The notes under the pieces are model-generated. The model was not told where the DNA came from, ran no database searches, and was given only the letters and a program-made list of their open reading frames with translations. From an uncultured Paludibacter sp. (GTDB lineage Bacteria; Bacteroidota; Bacteroidia; Bacteroidales; Paludibacteraceae), in contig LR026962.1 of the NCBI GenBank assembly GCA_900498215.1, positions 1,262,577 through 1,299,260 on the forward strand: a DNA stretch of 36,684 nucleotides, written 5' to 3'. A program made the translations under genes and the position numbers. Positions 13,848 to 31,265 of this stretch are shown here, in pieces; the first letter of the stretch is position 1; the number at the start of each line of letters is the position of its first letter.

Positions 13848-13863
13848 TCTATCCGGCAGTCTT

Positions 13864-13894
13864 AAAAAAAAGAAAGGTTGTCATCACGACAACC
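13864..13894 (-). terminator. minus-strand intrinsic terminator
   Basis: GGTTGTC (13876-13882), loop ATCAC, GACAACC (13888-13894); on the minus strand it is followed by a long T-run (A-run at 13864-13871). The plus strand has no T-run, so it does not terminate ispE. Confidence 0.65.
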
Positions 13895-13935
13895 CAATCT
13901 TCAATTAACCTTAAATCTAATACCATGAAAAACAC
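13864..13935 (-). ncRNA. candidate small RNA on the minus strand
   Basis: Reading the minus strand, a perfect -7 box (TATCTTTG, complement of 13940-13947) is followed about 60 nt later by an intrinsic terminator. The terminator has a 7-bp GGTTGTC/GACAACC stem (13876-13882 with 13888-13894, loop of 5) and then CTTTCTTTTTTTT (complement of 13863-13875). The implied transcript is about 70 nt, starting near 13934. It contains no obvious protein gene and faces away from any downstream minus-strand gene, so it looks like a self-contained RNA gene. I cannot tie it to a named RNA family. Confidence 0.45.
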
Positions 13936-25038: not shown

Positions 25039-25069
25039 TTGTTTTTGTAAAACAAATAATATACCTTTG
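25039..25069 (+). promoter_or_regulatory. promoter of the ilv operon
   Basis: TTG at 25039-25041, a 20-nt spacer and TACCTTTG at 25062-25069, a perfect Bacteroidota -7 box. The start is predicted near 25075, about 10 nt before the leader-peptide ATG, which places the whole attenuator in the transcript. Confidence 0.68.
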
Positions 25070-25084
25070 CAAAAAATTAAAGCA

Positions 25085-25153
25085 ATGAAAGCGCATAACA
25101 CAGTTAACATTCTCATTATTGTCGTGTTACTTTTGGTCAGCAATCAAAGGTGA
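25085..25153 (+). CDS. branched-chain amino-acid leader peptide
   Basis: A 22-codon frame, ATG at 25085 and TGA at 25151-25153, too short for ordinary gene calling. Codons 9-18 are ILIIVVLLLV, ten consecutive isoleucine, leucine and valine codons (3 Ile, 4 Leu, 3 Val; another Val is codon 7). This is the signature of the leader peptides that sense charged tRNA in ilv and leu operons. It lies between a perfect -7 box and an intrinsic terminator just before ilvD. The peptide itself probably has no function; ribosome stalling on its codons would be the signal. Bacteroidota ribosome-binding sites are weak, and none is clear here. Confidence 0.85.
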   Translation: MKAHNTVNILIIVVLLLVSNQR

Positions 25154-25230
25154 GAATGGTTATGTGTGTAATTTATAATATGTAATAAAAGCATTGAAAC
25201 CTTTCTCACTTAACAGAGAAAGGTTTTTTT
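25106..25230 (+). promoter_or_regulatory. ilv transcription attenuator (segments 1-4)
   Basis: Four pairing segments can be read. Segment 1, AACATTCTCA (25106-25115), covers codons 8 to 11 of the leader peptide. Segment 2, GTGAGAATGGTT (25150-25161), overlaps its stop codon. Segment 3, AACCTTTCTCAC (25198-25209). Segment 4, GAGAAAGGTTT (25216-25226), followed by T's. 1:2 pairs over 10 bp with one bulged G; 2:3 pairs 11 of 12 (one T-T mismatch); 3:4 is the 11-bp terminator. Stalling on Ile/Leu/Val codons would cover segment 1, free segment 2 to hold segment 3, and let transcription continue. A ribosome reaching the stop codon would cover segment 2 and allow termination. Confidence 0.82.
25197..25230 (+). 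terminator. attenuator terminator (3:4 hairpin)
   Basis: AAACCTTTCTC (25197-25207), loop ACTTAACA, GAGAAAGGTTT (25216-25226), T-run to 25230. It lies 12 nt upstream of the ilvD ATG, so it can only serve to control ilvD, not to end an upstream gene. Confidence 0.9.
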
Positions 25231-25241
25231 ATAAAAGAAAT

Positions 25242-27065
25242 ATGAATCTACGTAGTTTATCAAGCACACAAGGAAGACGTATGGCAGGCGCACGTGCATT
25301 ATGGCGCGCTAATGGAATGACCGATAAACAAATGGGAAAACCATTGATAGCTATTGTCAATTCGTTCACACAATTTGTTCCCGGACATGTTCATTTACAT
25401 GAAATCGGACAAAAAGTGAAATCTGAAATAGAAAAACTAGGTTGTTTTGCTGCCGAATTTAACACCATTGCTATTGACGATGGTATTGCTATGGGACACG
25501 ATGGTATGCTTTATTCACTTCCATCGCGGGATTTGATTGCAGACAGTGTGGAATATATGGTAAATGCACATAAAGCAGATGCGATGATTTGCATCAGTAA
25601 CTGCGATAAAATCACACCCGGAATGCTTATGGCTGCAATGCGTTTAAATATCCCTACTGTCTTTGTATCAGGCGGACCAATGGAAGCAGGTGAATTAGAC
25701 GGAAAACATTTGGATTTGATTGATGCTATGGTACAATCTGCCGATGAGAGTGTTTCTGATGCGCAAATAAACCGTATTGAAAACGCTGCGTGCCCCACAT
25801 GTGGTTCTTGTTCCGGCATGTTTACTGCCAATTCTATGAACTGTTTAAATGAAGCTATTGGCTTAGCGCTACCGGGAAATGGAACTATTGTTGCAACACA
25901 CTCCAACCGGGAAAAATTATTTATGGATGCTGCTAAATTAATTGTAGAAAACGCTTACAAATATTATAGGGATGGAGATGAAAGCGTTTTACCAAGAAGC
26001 ATAGCTACGCGTGAAGCATTTTTGAATGCCATGACATTAGATATTGCAATGGGCGGTTCTACCAATACCGTTTTACATATCTTAGCTATTGCCAACGAAG
26101 CAGAAGTGGATTTTACAATGGACGACATAGATGCACTTTCACGTAAAACGCCTTGTTTATGCAAAGTAGCTCCAAACACACAAAAATACCATATACAAGA
26201 TGTGAATAGAGCTGGAGGAATTTTGGGAATTCTCAATGAATTGAAAAAAAGCAATTTATTAAATACATCTGTTTATAGAATTGACGGATTAAATTTAAGA
26301 GAAGCCCTCGAAAAATATGATATAACGAAAATTGAAATTGATTCCAATGCTGAAAGCATATATAAAAGCGCTCCTGCTAACAAGTTTAACCTAAAAATGG
26401 GTTCGCAAAACTCACAATATAAAACACTTGATACCGATCGTGAGAACGGTTGTATTCGCGATATGGAACACGCATACACCAAAGATGGTGGGCTTGCTAT
26501 TTTGAAAGGAAACATAGCGCAAAACGGTTGCGTTGTTAAAACAGCCGGAGTAGATGAAAATATTTGGAAATTCACCGGAAAAGCAGTAGTATTCACATCA
26601 CAAGATAGCGCGATTGAAGGAATTCTAAAAGGGGAAGTTGTTTCAGGTGATGTGGTTGTAATAACACACGAAGGACCAAAAGGAGGACCAGGAATGCAGG
26701 AAATGCTCTACCCTACCTCCTACATCAAATCTCGTCATCTGGGAAAAGAATGTGCTTTAATTACCGACGGACGTTTTTCCGGAGGAACTTCGGGGCTTTC
26801 TATAGGTCATGTTTCACCGGAAGCAGCTGCGGGAGGAAATATCGGATTAATTCAAGACGGAGATACTATTGAAATTGATATTCCAAATCGCTCAATTAAT
26901 GTAAAATTAAGTGATGAAGAATTAATTCGACGCAGAAATGCCGAATTGGCAAGAGGAAAAGAAGCTTTTACTCCAAAGGACAGAAACCGACAAGTATCTA
27001 AAGCATTGCGTGCTTATGCAAGTATAGTAAGTTCAGCAGATAAAGGAGCGATAAGAGAAATTTAA
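25242..27065 (+). CDS. ilvD: dihydroxy-acid dehydratase
   Basis: A 607-residue iron-sulphur dehydratase that converts dihydroxy acids to the 2-keto acids of valine and isoleucine. It closely follows the E. coli-type pattern: [31 protein letters not shown] with C121 (adjacent Asp/Lys metal ligands), [11 protein letters not shown] (C184, C187, C190), [20 protein letters not shown]. Length is normal. The start at 25242 is preferred to a TTG at 25194, which would lie in front of and within the attenuator stem. It is first in the ilv operon; ilvB follows after 98 nt. Confidence 0.97.
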
Positions 27066-27163: not shown

Positions 27164-28858
27164 ATGAATAAAACACTAAACGGCGCACACGCACTTATGC
27201 AAGCGCTTATACACGAAGGGGTTGATACAATATTCGGATATCCTGGCGGTGCAATTATGCCTGTTTTCGATGCATTGTACGACTATCACGAAAAAATTAA
27301 TCACATTCTTACACGTCACGAACAAGGCGCAACCCACGCAGCACAAGGTTACGCACGCGTATCAGGAAAAGTGGGAGTTTGTTTGGTAACATCCGGTCCG
27401 GCTGCTACTAATGCTATAACCGGAATTGCCGATGCATTGCTTGACAGCACACCGCTTGTGGTAGTTACCGGACAAGTTGGAGCATCTTTGTTAGGCACGG
27501 ATGCTTTTCAGGAAATAGATGTGGTGGGAATTACCCAGCCAATTACCAAATGGGCTTATCAAATCCGCAAAGCGGAAGATGTTGCTTGGGCAGTAGCGCG
27601 TGCATTTTATATTGCAAGAAGTGGACGTCCCGGTCCTGTTGTACTTGATTTTGCCAAAAGCGCACAAGTGGAAACTATTGATTTCAAGTATAAATCCTGT
27701 AAATTTATCCGCAGTTATAATGCTATTCCTGAAATTCAAGAAGAACAAATCAATGTAGCAGCAGAATTAATTAATCAGTCCAAAAAACCGTATGCTCTTG
27801 TAGGACAAGGTGTTATTTTGGCAAATGCTGAAAAAGAATTAATTGAATTTCTTGAAAAAGCCGATATTCCCGCAGCCTCCACTTTGCTCGGGCTTTCTGC
27901 AATACCTACTGATTTTCGATTAAACAAAGGATTTCTTGGAATGCACGGAAATGTTGCTCCAAATATGAAAACGAATGAGTGTGATGTACTTATTGCTATC
28001 GGTATGCGCTTTGATGACCGCGTTACAGGAGATTTGAAAACATACGCAAAACAAGCAAAAATCGTTCATTTAGATATCGATCCATCTGAAATTGGCAAAA
28101 ATGTTGCAGTAGATGCTCCCGTATTAGGTTCTGCTAAAGACAGCTTAAAAGCATTAACAAAAAAAATAAATAAAGCCAAACACACCGAATGGATTGAAAG
28201 TTTTGATGAATATGACAAGAAAGAGCAAGACGCAGTTATCAATAAAGAACTTTTCCCTGCATCGGGAGAAATTACAATGGGAGAAGTAATTCATAAAATT
28301 ACAGAAGCCACAGACAACGACGCTGTTGTTGTTACTGATGTAGGACAAAACCAAATGATGGCAGCGCGTTATTTCAAATACAAACATTCTCGCAGTATAG
28401 TAACCTCAGGAGGGTTAGGAACAATGGGATTTGGACTTCCGGCAGCTATCGGCGCTAAAATGGGCGCTTCTGAACGTACTGTTTGTCTATTTACCGGCGA
28501 TGGCGGTTTTCAAATGACAATTCAGGAATTGGGAACTATTATGCAGGAAAATGTAGGTGTAAAAATGATTGTATTAGATAATCGTTTTCTTGGAATGGTT
28601 CGTCAATGGCAGGAACTTTTCTTTGATGAAAGATATTCATTTACACATATGAAAAACCCTGATTTTGTTGCTATTGCAAAAGCATATAACATTGACGGCA
28701 AACTTGTTACAAAACGTGAAGAACTGAATGATGCCATTGCCGACATGCTTAAAGATGATAAACCATATCTATTAGTGGTGGAAGTGGAACAAAAAGGAAT
28801 GGTATATCCAATGGTGCCAGCCGGAACATGTGTAACCAATATAATGTTAGGAGAATAA
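27164..28858 (+). CDS. ilvB: acetolactate synthase large subunit
   Basis: A 564-residue thiamine-diphosphate enzyme for the first common step of valine, leucine and isoleucine synthesis. The catalytic glutamate is E53 in RHEQGATHAAQGYAR. The FAD/pyrimidine part includes GFLGMHGNVAPNMKTNECDV, and the ThDP-binding motif begins at GDGG (445-448) and runs through VLDNRFLGMVRQWQ. The length is typical of AHAS catalytic subunits. The regulatory subunit gene starts 3 nt after the stop, so the two are tightly coupled. Confidence 0.97.
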   Translation: MNKTLNGAHALMQALIHEGVDTIFGYPGGAIMPVFDALYDYHEKINHILTRHEQGATHAAQGYARVSGKVGVCLVTSGPAATNAITGIADALLDSTPLVVVTGQVGASLLGTDAFQEIDVVGITQPITKWAYQIRKAEDVAWAVARAFYIARSGRPGPVVLDFAKSAQVETIDFKYKSCKFIRSYNAIPEIQEEQINVAAELINQSKKPYALVGQGVILANAEKELIEFLEKADIPAASTLLGLSAIPTDFRLNKGFLGMHGNVAPNMKTNECDVLIAIGMRFDDRVTGDLKTYAKQAKIVHLDIDPSEIGKNVAVDAPVLGSAKDSLKALTKKINKAKHTEWIESFDEYDKKEQDAVINKELFPASGEITMGEVIHKITEATDNDAVVVTDVGQNQMMAARYFKYKHSRSIVTSGGLGTMGFGLPAAIGAKMGASERTVCLFTGDGGFQMTIQELGTIMQENVGVKMIVLDNRFLGMVRQWQELFFDERYSFTHMKNPDFVAIAKAYNIDGKLVTKREELNDAIADMLKDDKPYLLVVEVEQKGMVYPMVPAGTCVTNIMLGE

Positions 28859-28861
28859 ATT

Positions 28862-29410
28862 ATGGAAACAAAATTATATACTATCACGGTTTTCTCTGAA
28901 AACACAGTCGGTATTCTAAACCAAATAACTGTAATATTTACACGCCGTGCATTAAACATTGAAACCCTTTCGGTTTCTCCATCAGCATTGGAGGGAATAC
29001 ATAAGTTTACCATTACGCTTAATTCTACTCAAGATATGGTAGAAAAAGTAGTAAAACAAATTGATAAACGTGTGGATATACTCAAAGCATATTACAATAC
29101 AGACGAAGACCTTGTGCATCAAGAACTTGCAATGTATAAATTAGCTACAGATAAGGTTTTGGAACACGGTTCTGTAGAATATTTTATAAGAAAATATAAC
29201 ATTCGCGTTTTAGAAATATCAAACGATTGTACTGTTTTTCTAAAAGCCGGACATTACGCTGAGACACAAGAACTTTTCAATGAATTAAGTAAAACTATTG
29301 GAGTTTTGCAATTTATCCGTTCAGGGCGCGTAGCTATTACCCGCTCTAAAGTAGAACGCCTCAGCGATATGCTTGATAACATGCGAAAAATTGAAGAAAA
29401 ACATCAATGA
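28862..29410 (+). CDS. ilvN: acetolactate synthase small (regulatory) subunit
   Basis: A 182-residue protein with an N-terminal ACT domain (YTITVFSENTVGILNQITV, NIETLSVSPSALEGIHKFT) that binds valine, and a C-terminal domain (about 80-165) that stimulates the large subunit (VFLKAGHYAETQELFNEL, GVLQFIRSGRVAITR). It starts 3 nt after ilvB and ends in a 4-nt ATGA overlap with the acyl-ACP thioesterase gene. The symbol ilvH would be equally valid. Confidence 0.94.
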   Translation: METKLYTITVFSENTVGILNQITVIFTRRALNIETLSVSPSALEGIHKFTITLNSTQDMVEKVVKQIDKRVDILKAYYNTDEDLVHQELAMYKLATDKVLEHGSVEYFIRKYNIRVLEISNDCTVFLKAGHYAETQELFNELSKTIGVLQFIRSGRVAITRSKVERLSDMLDNMRKIEEKHQ

Positions 29411-30153
29411 GAGGGCAAAGCAAATTTCAAATAGCTCCACAAACAGTTGATTTTCAAGGACAAATTACCATTGGTGCGTTGGTAGACTTAATTCTTACCA
29501 CTGCAGGGAACAATGCTGATGAAAATGGTTTTGGTATCAGAGATTTACAAAAACTGAATTGCACTTGGGTATTATCACGTTTGGCGGTAGAAATGGAATA
29601 TATGCCCAAACAATATGAATGGATTTACATTGACACGTGGATTGATGAAGTATATAAACTGAATACGACTCGTAATTTTCAAATTCGGAACAGTGAAAAT
29701 AAAATCATCGGACAAGCTGTTTCGCTTTGGGTAATGATCAACTTTGAAACACGCAGACCTGTAGAATTAGAAAAACTGGGAAGTATTCATCATCACGCAG
29801 AGCATATACACGTTAATATTGCTGCGCCGCTAAAACTGGATATTGTAAATAGTACTCCAAAAAAATCTTTTTCAGTATGTTACAGCGATATTGACATTAA
29901 TCAACATGTAAACACTGTAAAATATATTCAATGGATGTCCGATTGTCTTTCGCTTGATTTTTACAAACAAAACCAATTGGAACGATTTGATGTAAATTTT
30001 ATAAATGAAGTTGTTTTTGGAGATAATATTGAGGTTTATCAACAAGAAATAGAAGAAAACGATTTTCATTTTGAAATTTCAAAAGAAGAAAAAACAGCTT
30101 GTAGAGGAAGATTGAAGTTCAAAAGTTTGAGCACAAAAGAAATTAAAAATTAA
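29407..30153 (+). CDS. acyl-ACP thioesterase (FatA/FatB-like)
   Basis: A 248-residue double-hotdog thioesterase. The strongest sign is DINQHVNTVKYIQW (163-176), which closely matches the catalytic Asn/His region of plant FatA/FatB enzymes. The N-terminal hotdog carries NCTWVLSRLAVEMEYMP and the WIDEVYKLNTTRNFQIRN block. The length is normal for bacterial members. It would hydrolyse acyl-acyl carrier protein to free fatty acid. The gene overlaps ilvN by 4 nt and precedes ilvC, so it sits inside the branched-chain amino-acid operon. That fits a link to branched-chain fatty acids, whose primers come from the same keto acids (inference). Confidence 0.9.
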   Translation: MRGQSKFQIAPQTVDFQGQITIGALVDLILTTAGNNADENGFGIRDLQKLNCTWVLSRLAVEMEYMPKQYEWIYIDTWIDEVYKLNTTRNFQIRNSENKIIGQAVSLWVMINFETRRPVELEKLGSIHHHAEHIHVNIAAPLKLDIVNSTPKKSFSVCYSDIDINQHVNTVKYIQWMSDCLSLDFYKQNQLERFDVNFINEVVFGDNIEVYQQEIEENDFHFEISKEEKTACRGRLKFKSLSTKEIKN

Positions 30154-30218: not shown

Positions 30219-31265
30219 ATGGCAATAATGAATTTTGGCGGGATGGACGAAAACGTTGTTACCCGCAATGAATTTCCACTGGAAAAAGCACGTGAAGTAT
30301 TAAAAAATGAAGTAATCGCTGTAATCGGTTACGGCGTTCAAGGTCCCGGACAATCACTTAACCTGAAAGATAACGGATTTAATGTAATTGTAGGACAACG
30401 CAAAGGTGGTAAAACTTGGGACAAAGCTGTCGCTGACGGCTGGATTCCGGGTGAAAGTCTGTTTGACATTGAAGAAGCTTGCGAAAAAGCAACCATTATT
30501 CAATATTTGCTTTCAGATGCGGCACAAATTGAAGTTTGGCCCCGCATTAAACCTTATCTTACGGCAGGAAAAGCGCTTTATTTTTCACACGGTTTCGGCA
30601 TCACGTATAAAGAACGTACGGGAATTATTCCACCGGCAGATGTTGACGTAATTTTAGTTGCTCCAAAAGGTTCCGGAACTTCATTGAGAAGAATGTTTTT
30701 GCAAGGACGCGGTTTAAATTCATCCTATGCGATATTTCAAGATGCTACCGGACGTGCTAAAGAACGTGTTATTGCACTTGGTATCGGTGTGGGTTCCGGA
30801 TATTTGTTTGAAACTACTTTTAAACGTGAAGTGTACTCTGATTTAACCGGCGAACGCGGAACATTGATGGGCGCTATTCAAGGATTACTTTTGGCACAAT
30901 ATGAAGTTCTTCGCGAAAACGGACATACTCCATCGGAAGCATTCAATGAAACGGTAGAAGAACTGACTCAATCGTTGATGCCTCTTTTTGCTGAAAACGG
31001 TATGGACTGGATGTATGCAAACTGTTCCACAACGGCACAGCGAGGCGCTTTGGATTGGATGGGACCTTTCCACGATGCAACAAAACCTGTGTTTGAAAAA
31101 CTATATAAAGAAGTTGCCAGCGGAAACGAAGCTCAACGTTCCATTGATACCAATTCCAAACCTGACTATCGCGAAGGGTTGGAAAAAGAACTGAAAGAAC
31201 TCCGTGAAAGTGAAATGTGGCAAGCAGGAGCTGTTGTACGTAAACTGAGGCCGGAAAATAATTAG
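30219..31265 (+). CDS. ilvC: ketol-acid reductoisomerase
   Basis: A 348-residue class I reductoisomerase that rearranges and reduces acetolactate. The Rossmann motif GYGVQG is at 37-42, and the cofactor loop GQRKGGKTW (59-67) has basic residues suited to NADPH. APKGSGTSLRRMF, DLTGERGTLMGAIQGLL and the C-terminal ANCSTTAQRGALDW carry the metal- and substrate-binding regions. It is the last gene of the ilv group, 65 nt after the thioesterase. A hairpin follows. No leu genes are in the window. Confidence 0.96.
   Translation: MAIMNFGGMDENVVTRNEFPLEKAREVLKNEVIAVIGYGVQGPGQSLNLKDNGFNVIVGQRKGGKTWDKAVADGWIPGESLFDIEEACEKATIIQYLLSDAAQIEVWPRIKPYLTAGKALYFSHGFGITYKERTGIIPPADVDVILVAPKGSGTSLRRMFLQGRGLNSSYAIFQDATGRAKERVIALGIGVGSGYLFETTFKREVYSDLTGERGTLMGAIQGLLLAQYEVLRENGHTPSEAFNETVEELTQSLMPLFAENGMDWMYANCSTTAQRGALDWMGPFHDATKPVFEKLYKEVASGNEAQRSIDTNSKPDYREGLEKELKELRESEMWQAGAVVRKLRPENN

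Follow-up and report, generated by a model that had tools for sequence, protein, structure and literature searches.

Genes and leader of the ilvD locus

The window, i.e. the whole analysed stretch of 36,684 nucleotides, carries a series of ilv genes on its plus strand. The first structural gene is ilvD, coding for dihydroxy-acid dehydratase (25242-27065; NCBIfam NF009103, 1084.6 bits; TIGR00110, 794.6 bits). It is followed by ilvB and ilvN for the large and small subunits of acetolactate synthase (27164-28858, TIGR00118, 716.6 bits; 28862-29410, TIGR00119, 82.1 bits), by an acyl-ACP thioesterase gene (29407-30153; PF01643, PF20791), and by ilvC for ketol-acid reductoisomerase (30219-31265; TIGR00465, 329.6 bits). 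The nearest named relatives according to IlvD are Bacteroidales MAGs, including Paludibacter (84% identity).

Upstream of ilvD, an ORF of 22 codons begins with ATG at 25085, ends with TGA at 25153, and translates to MKAHNTVNILIIVVLLLVSNQR. Residues I9-V18, encoded at 25109-25138, form an unbroken run of ten control codons, three for Ile, four for Leu and three for Val. Re-reading of the ORF thus bears out the frame with ten such codons in a row described in the first-pass annotation. The window has 470 short ATG ORFs (10-45 aa, 224 on the plus and 246 on the minus strand, nested starts counted), and no other one reaches 8 Ile, Leu or Val residues (ILV) in ten codons. A short 5' ORF with codons for the products of the pathway, as in ribosome-mediated attenuators, stands before ilvD.

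The ORF is located between ilvD and a −7 motif of the Bacteroidota type. The putative promoter (25039-25069, plus strand) is composed of a −33-like TTG at 25039-25041, which is a weak call, and of the −7 motif TACCTTTG at 25062-25069, following the TAnnTTTG consensus quoted in PMC9723704. The motif ends 15 nt before the leader ATG. Given the usual start-site offset, the 5' UTR may be only about 9 nt long here.

Four segments of the leader RNA, all on the plus strand, can pair in alternative ways. Segment 1 (25105-25117) is the 5' arm of a protector helix, segment 2 (25148-25162) overlaps the leader stop codon, segment 3 (25196-25211) has the core CCTTTCTCAC, and segment 4 (25216-25227) is the 3' arm of a putative intrinsic terminator with a U-rich tail at 25226-25232. 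Helix 1:2 pairs 25105-25117 with 25149-25162 (−18.1 kcal/mol, z −2.7). Helix 2:3 joins 25148-25161 to 25198-25211 by 13 pairs with one mismatch (−19.3 kcal/mol, z −3.9), and helix 3:4, comprised of 25196-25207 and 25216-25227 (−15.4 kcal/mol, z −6.0), runs into the U-rich tract. Helix 2:3 is exclusive with both of the others. According to the energies, 2:3 would win over 3:4 whenever segment 2 is free, while 1:2 is able to sequester segment 2. The fold of the whole leader has z −3.6 against shuffled sequences, and an equally good one was obtained in 1 of 200 shuffles. The segments proposed earlier for 1:2, 2:3 and 3:4 agree with the new folds to within a few nucleotides.

An intrinsic-terminator hairpin is thus placed between the leader ORF and the first structural gene, even though a simple consensus terminator scan did not list this plus-strand hairpin. 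We explain the omission by extension of the stem into the T-run, which leaves too few T residues for the rule of the scan. Rfam, with the amino-acid leader families of its library included, gave no family at the gathering cut-off at the leader site; the best weak match was PyrR (27.1 bits, cut-off 54), and Phe_leader reached 16.7 bits (cut-off 55). Elsewhere in the window, the Bacteroidetes sRNA family BTncRNA_FopS matched 13862-13935 on the minus strand (78.7 bits).

Conservation and covariation across Bacteroidales

To find related loci, a PF00920 profile was searched through three overlapping sets of 61 genomes of relatives, 197 of the order and 118 of the phylum, with matches in 34, 84 and 89 genomes, respectively. 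The upstream regions from the phylum are a partial sample of the 30 best loci and 20 hand-chosen places, and two matches from the order (G093, G187), cut by contig ends, are not among the upstream regions. A Bacteroidales-type class of ilvD (n = 94) was defined by its N-terminal motif; three leader-bearing loci of close relatives (L014, L137, L138) fall outside it because of long N-termini. To count as a leader, an ORF had to start with ATG and to contain 7 or more ILV residues in ten codons.

Such a leader was found upstream of 71 of the 94 Bacteroidales-type genes, compared with 2 of 94 on the reverse strand, 3.0% of shuffles, and 0 or 1 of 94 for seven other amino-acid triples. The leader is not universal, since by this threshold it is missing in 23 of the 94 loci, or in 20 if GTG and TTG starts are allowed. 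In the named genomes, 77 of 80 loci have at least 200 nt upstream. With alternative starts allowed, 66 of these 77 have the leader, and 58, including that of Phocaeicola vulgatus ATCC 8482, have both leader and hairpin.

Outside this class the picture differs from one ilvD type to another. Chlorobi-type genes are preceded by an ILV-rich ORF in 13 of 26 cases if any start is accepted (none on the reverse strand) and in 6 of 26 with ATG, and only 4 of the 13 (loci among L055-L082) have a hairpin by our criterion. In ten of these 13, the ORF ends at a distance of 108-118 nt from the gene, and a clear terminator is mostly lacking. The other main type, with a MELNKYSKTITQD-like N-terminus and mostly from other orders, has such an ORF in 6 of 23 loci and a hairpin in 5 of them (2 and 0 on the reverse strand). 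We do not claim attenuation of the Bacteroidales type for either the Chlorobi-type or the MELNKYSKTITQD-like ilvD.

The hairpin goes together with the leader. Of the leader-positive loci, 70 of 74 have a T-tailed hairpin below −6 kcal/mol within the 200 nt preceding ilvD; of the leader-negative ones, 7 of 20 do, so that some of these retain the hairpin alone. For further comparison, a set of 107 loci was compiled by removing hairpins weaker than −8 kcal/mol, regions outside 60-135 nt, and near-duplicates (127 reduced to 107). The control window contains all three amino acids in 91 of them; Ile is missing in 12, Val in 4, and Leu in none. In 98 of the 107 loci, TAnnTTTG stands no more than 90 nt ahead of the start codon of the leader, at a median distance of 24 nt. 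It was seen in 5.6% of mononucleotide shuffles, and of 107 stretches taken from inside ilvD only one contains it. The most likely start of transcription is thus upstream of the leader ORF, and the putative promoter motif of the window is shared by most of the sequences compared.

Pairing between segments 2 and 3 is stronger than in shuffled sequences (mean z −3.4), with z below −2 in 56 of 69 loci. The remaining 13 do not reach this value, and three of them (L101, L114, L131) have no 2:3 duplex. When partners were swapped among loci, none of 5000 permutations was as good, and the own partner ranked among the top 10% in 32 of the 69 loci, although both the swap and the shuffle controls leave the shared ancestry of loci in place.

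Compensatory changes were examined in the alignment A1, which comprises 92 loci of the deduplicated set of 107 after exclusion of 15 by hand; all 107 were checked separately. In A1, 87.8% of cells are paired in helix 2:3 and 95.6% in helix 3:4. Both partners have changed in 10 of 11 pairs of each helix (54 and 65 cells). Control helices with partners slid by 1-3 columns did not exceed 55.8% and 23 cells for 2:3, or 70.3% and 25 cells for 3:4. In all 107 loci, the values are 86.6% and 66 cells for 2:3 (slid, at most 56.6% and 33 cells) and 94.6% and 75 cells for 3:4 (slid, at most 81.5% and 30 cells). Changes on both sides also occur in slid versions, in up to 8 of 11 pairs in A1 and 10 of 11 in the 107 loci, and the argument is thus built on cell counts and paired percentages. 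Segment 2 has the consensus GUGAGAAAGG in A1. Two mutually exclusive helices that share segment 3 are both maintained by compensatory change, and such covariation is a signature of an attenuator. The alignment proposed in the first-pass annotation supports the interpretation given there: across Bacteroidales, the run of control codons is kept, as are segments 2, 3 and 4 with compensatory changes. A qualification is that the leader, by threshold, is missing at the 23 loci mentioned above.

The protector helix 1:2, clear in the window, is only moderately supported, less so than 2:3 and 3:4. It reaches z below −2 in 42 of 106 loci, and none of 2000 permutations in the swap test was as good.

A small hydrophobic, membrane-located protein could also be encoded by the short ORF, with the hairpin marking the end of its gene and ilvD expressed by leak-through or from another promoter. 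The ten-residue hydrophobic run and the promoter motif directly upstream of the ORF are compatible with such a protein. We nevertheless consider it very improbable, because the loci keep their ILV content and RNA pairing but differ in the sequence and length of the peptide, and because the covarying antiterminator helix sits at the stop codon. In addition, a Pfam search with the peptide gave no match, and other hydrophobic residues are rare in the control windows (F 2, M 1 and A 12 of 1,070), which is partly by construction, as windows were chosen for ILV.

Another alternative is that the hairpin controls translation of ilvD instead of transcription, as might be thought from the window, where the ilvD start codon follows about 14 nt past the stem. 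Among leader-positive loci this distance extends from 15 to 155 nt, so masking of the ilvD start is not general; furthermore, the hairpins found are T-tailed, although a T-tail was required by the search. We consider translational control very improbable and read the hairpin as a putative transcription terminator.

The spacing of segments fits transcription attenuation. Geometry was assessed in 104 of the 107 loci, leaving aside one with too short a spacer and two with duplexes weaker than −10 kcal/mol. Pairing of segment 2 begins a median of 13 nt (IQR 10-15) past the last control codon, and at least 8 nt past it in 100 of the 104. Segment 2 starts at a median of 1 nt before the leader stop codon, within −10 to +12 in 85 loci and outside this range in 19. 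In the window, the control run ends at 25138, nine nt ahead of segment 2, and the stop codon (25151-25153) lies inside it, so that the position on the stop codon assigned to segment 2 at first reading holds in the window and, approximately, in most loci. A ribosome covers about ten nt beyond the codon in its A site. With this footprint, the distances indicate that a ribosome stalled on the control codons would leave segment 2 largely free, while one at the stop codon would mask it.

UGA serves as the leader stop in 64 of the 107 loci, with G or A as the next base in 57 of these. Control codons also deviate from the usage in ilvD (GTC 51% vs 15%, CTA 18% vs 4%, CTC 28% vs 13%, ATT 76% vs 42%). 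This skew fits the use of easily depleted isoacceptors, and pairing by segment 1 may contribute to it in part.

Related sites before other operons

We built a covariance model of the element from ilvD sites alone; it scores 74.8 bits at the ilvD site of the window. In the same genome it disclosed a second site before the 2-isopropylmalate synthase gene leuA (L339:1449-1587; G000:C1 near 604272; 54 bits), with the leader MNNNSLHIILLGIIILLRSQRV and the same attenuator design as at ilvD. A match before trpB (L343:1458-1594; G000:C1 near 756791) is weak (32 bits, E 0.08). Its leader MISIQNKIWWWRNLRFNKS includes Trp-Trp-Trp and is accompanied by a terminator-like hairpin, and the site is credible because of these Trp codons and not because of the model score. 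Further weak matches in this genome (L340-L342, L344-L347) look like ordinary terminators and were set aside.

In a search of 392 genomes, at least 264 had a match at E 0.1 or better. Downstream genes were checked for 29 of the best matches and for 20 chosen ones. Of the 29 best loci of the order (L348-L376), many of which belong to the training set, 27 precede ilvD and 2 leuA. The 20 matches chosen away from known ilvD sites are followed by leuA-like genes in 11 cases, ilvD in 5, ilvB in 1 and gltB-like genes in 3. Families of the downstream genes were checked by profile for ilvB, for one gltB (L397), and for two leuA outside the twenty (L339, L372); the others were named by eye. Leaders at leuA sites are rich in Ile and Leu.

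A similar core hairpin with a short ORF was observed at 6 of 30 loci of the glutamate synthase large subunit (L397, L398, L399, L400, L402, L410), where the ORFs have no control-codon run; 3 of the 30 loci were unreadable by motif. Among the matches listed, three pairs are separated by 155-207 nt (G357:C68:23769 and 23976; G421:C101:70964 and 71165; G552:C137:1541 and 1696), and they are perhaps tandem attenuators.

Leaders with His or Trp codons were not found before hisG and trpE in the genome of the window, which has the Trp leader before trpB instead. Candidate leaders with His or Trp runs are present before these genes in other Bacteroidales (L239, L242, L243, L268, L270, L275). Before the gene for the fused aspartokinase-homoserine dehydrogenase, leaders with threonine codons are mostly absent, with 2 of 20 loci reaching 6 Thr or Ile in ten codons.

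The related sites also bear on the possibility that a ligand- or protein-binding RNA switch toggles between 2:3 and 3:4, the ORF being incidental. Such a switch would account for the good conservation of both exclusive helices, and for some gltB sites at which a similar core is combined with ORFs lacking the codon run. It would leave unexplained why the ILV run is three-quarters conserved at ilvD and so rare in shuffles (71 of 94 loci against 3.0%), and why the codons match the product of the operon elsewhere, Ile and Leu at leuA and Trp at trpB. The Rfam result, with PyrR far below its cut-off, likewise argues against a switch, and we give this explanation very little credence compared with control by a translating ribosome.

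Tentatively, and with slightly less than even confidence, we suggest that one scaffold, with a segment 3 core near CC[A/T]TTCTCAC and segment 2 starting from the leader stop, could be a reusable cassette of Bacteroidales. The RNA core would be kept while control codons are swapped: Ile, Leu and Val at ilvD and ilvB, Ile and Leu at leuA, perhaps Trp at trpB, and another signal at gltB, with codons taken from the isoacceptors depleted first. If so, tight coupling of transcription and translation in Bacteroidales would follow; we know of no measurement of coupling in this order.

Proposed mechanism and comparison with known systems

Judged from sequence, the ilvD leader is very probably a classical ribosome-mediated transcription attenuator. 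Its parts are present and conserved, and the two exclusive helices covary; from this we infer that the leader is translated, that ribosomes stall and termination follows or not in coupled transcription and translation, that the operon is a single transcript, and that it responds to three amino acids. Transcription would begin a short distance before the leader ORF, with a ribosome then starting on the 22-codon peptide. A shortage of any of the three charged tRNAs (Ile, Leu or Val) would make the ribosome stall in the ten-codon run (25109-25138) and leave segment 2 uncovered to pair with segment 3. The terminator would then not form, and RNA polymerase would continue into ilvD-ilvB-ilvN-thioesterase-ilvC. 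With all three amino acids plentiful, the ribosome would reach UGA at 25151-25153 and cover segment 2, so that 3:4 forms and transcription stops near 25230. In a leader that is not translated, 1:2 would form, leading again to termination.

PMC2965389 stated in 2010 that leader-peptide systems were known only from Proteobacteria and Actinobacteria, and added Firmicutes. In B. thetaiotaomicron, sORFs reminiscent of leader peptides were noted in 5' UTRs (PMC7366714); the string "ilv" is absent from the main text of that paper. Among the papers listed in our literature search, none describes a Bacteroidales ilv leader, although Lopatovskaya 2010 (Mol Biol 44:128) may already predict one. The mechanism is a textbook one and was already suspected in the phylum; within the literature searched, an ilv element of this kind, spread over the order and supported by covariation, seems not to have been described.

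The element would carry this textbook control, backed by covariation, over to an order dominant in the gut, which has Phocaeicola vulgatus of the human gut among its species. A prediction is that ribosome and RNA polymerase are close enough in Bacteroidales for stalling to decide termination. Possible uses are a reporter of branched-chain amino-acid shortage in Bacteroides, and annotation of such leaders by the covariance model.

The classical model of leader-peptide attenuation is that of the enteric ilvGMEDA, ilvBN and leu operons. In design, the Bacteroidales element shares with them the Ile/Leu/Val leader ORF, segments able to pair as 1:2, 2:3 and 3:4, and an intrinsic terminator before the first structural gene. 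It differs in promoter class and in the start of segment 2, which coincides with the stop codon of the leader, while the operon differs in starting with ilvD and in containing an acyl-ACP thioesterase gene.

Within the phylum, Bacteroid-trp RNA (RF01692) is likewise a candidate cis-regulatory RNA of Bacteroidota, the name of which suggests trp genes (PMC2864571). The phrase "leader peptide" is absent from the main text of that source, and no Rfam match to this RNA was obtained at the ilvD site. For Flavobacterium psychrophilum, amino-acid operons were reported to be preceded by regions with strong clues of attenuation by leader peptides (PMC9723704, the main text of which does not contain the string "ilv"). 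These candidates share with our element the phylum and the position in 5' regions of amino-acid operons, but belong to another order.

The uORF attenuator of Corynebacterium ilvBNC (ilvB-II motif) is supported by experiments (PMC10272879, PMC11857589), and uORF attenuation was proposed in the former as a common mechanism for ilvB genes. Its arrangement is alike, with a BCAA-rich uORF, an antiterminator and a terminator upstream of ilv genes, whereas the Bacteroidales element is found in a different phylum and before a different first gene.
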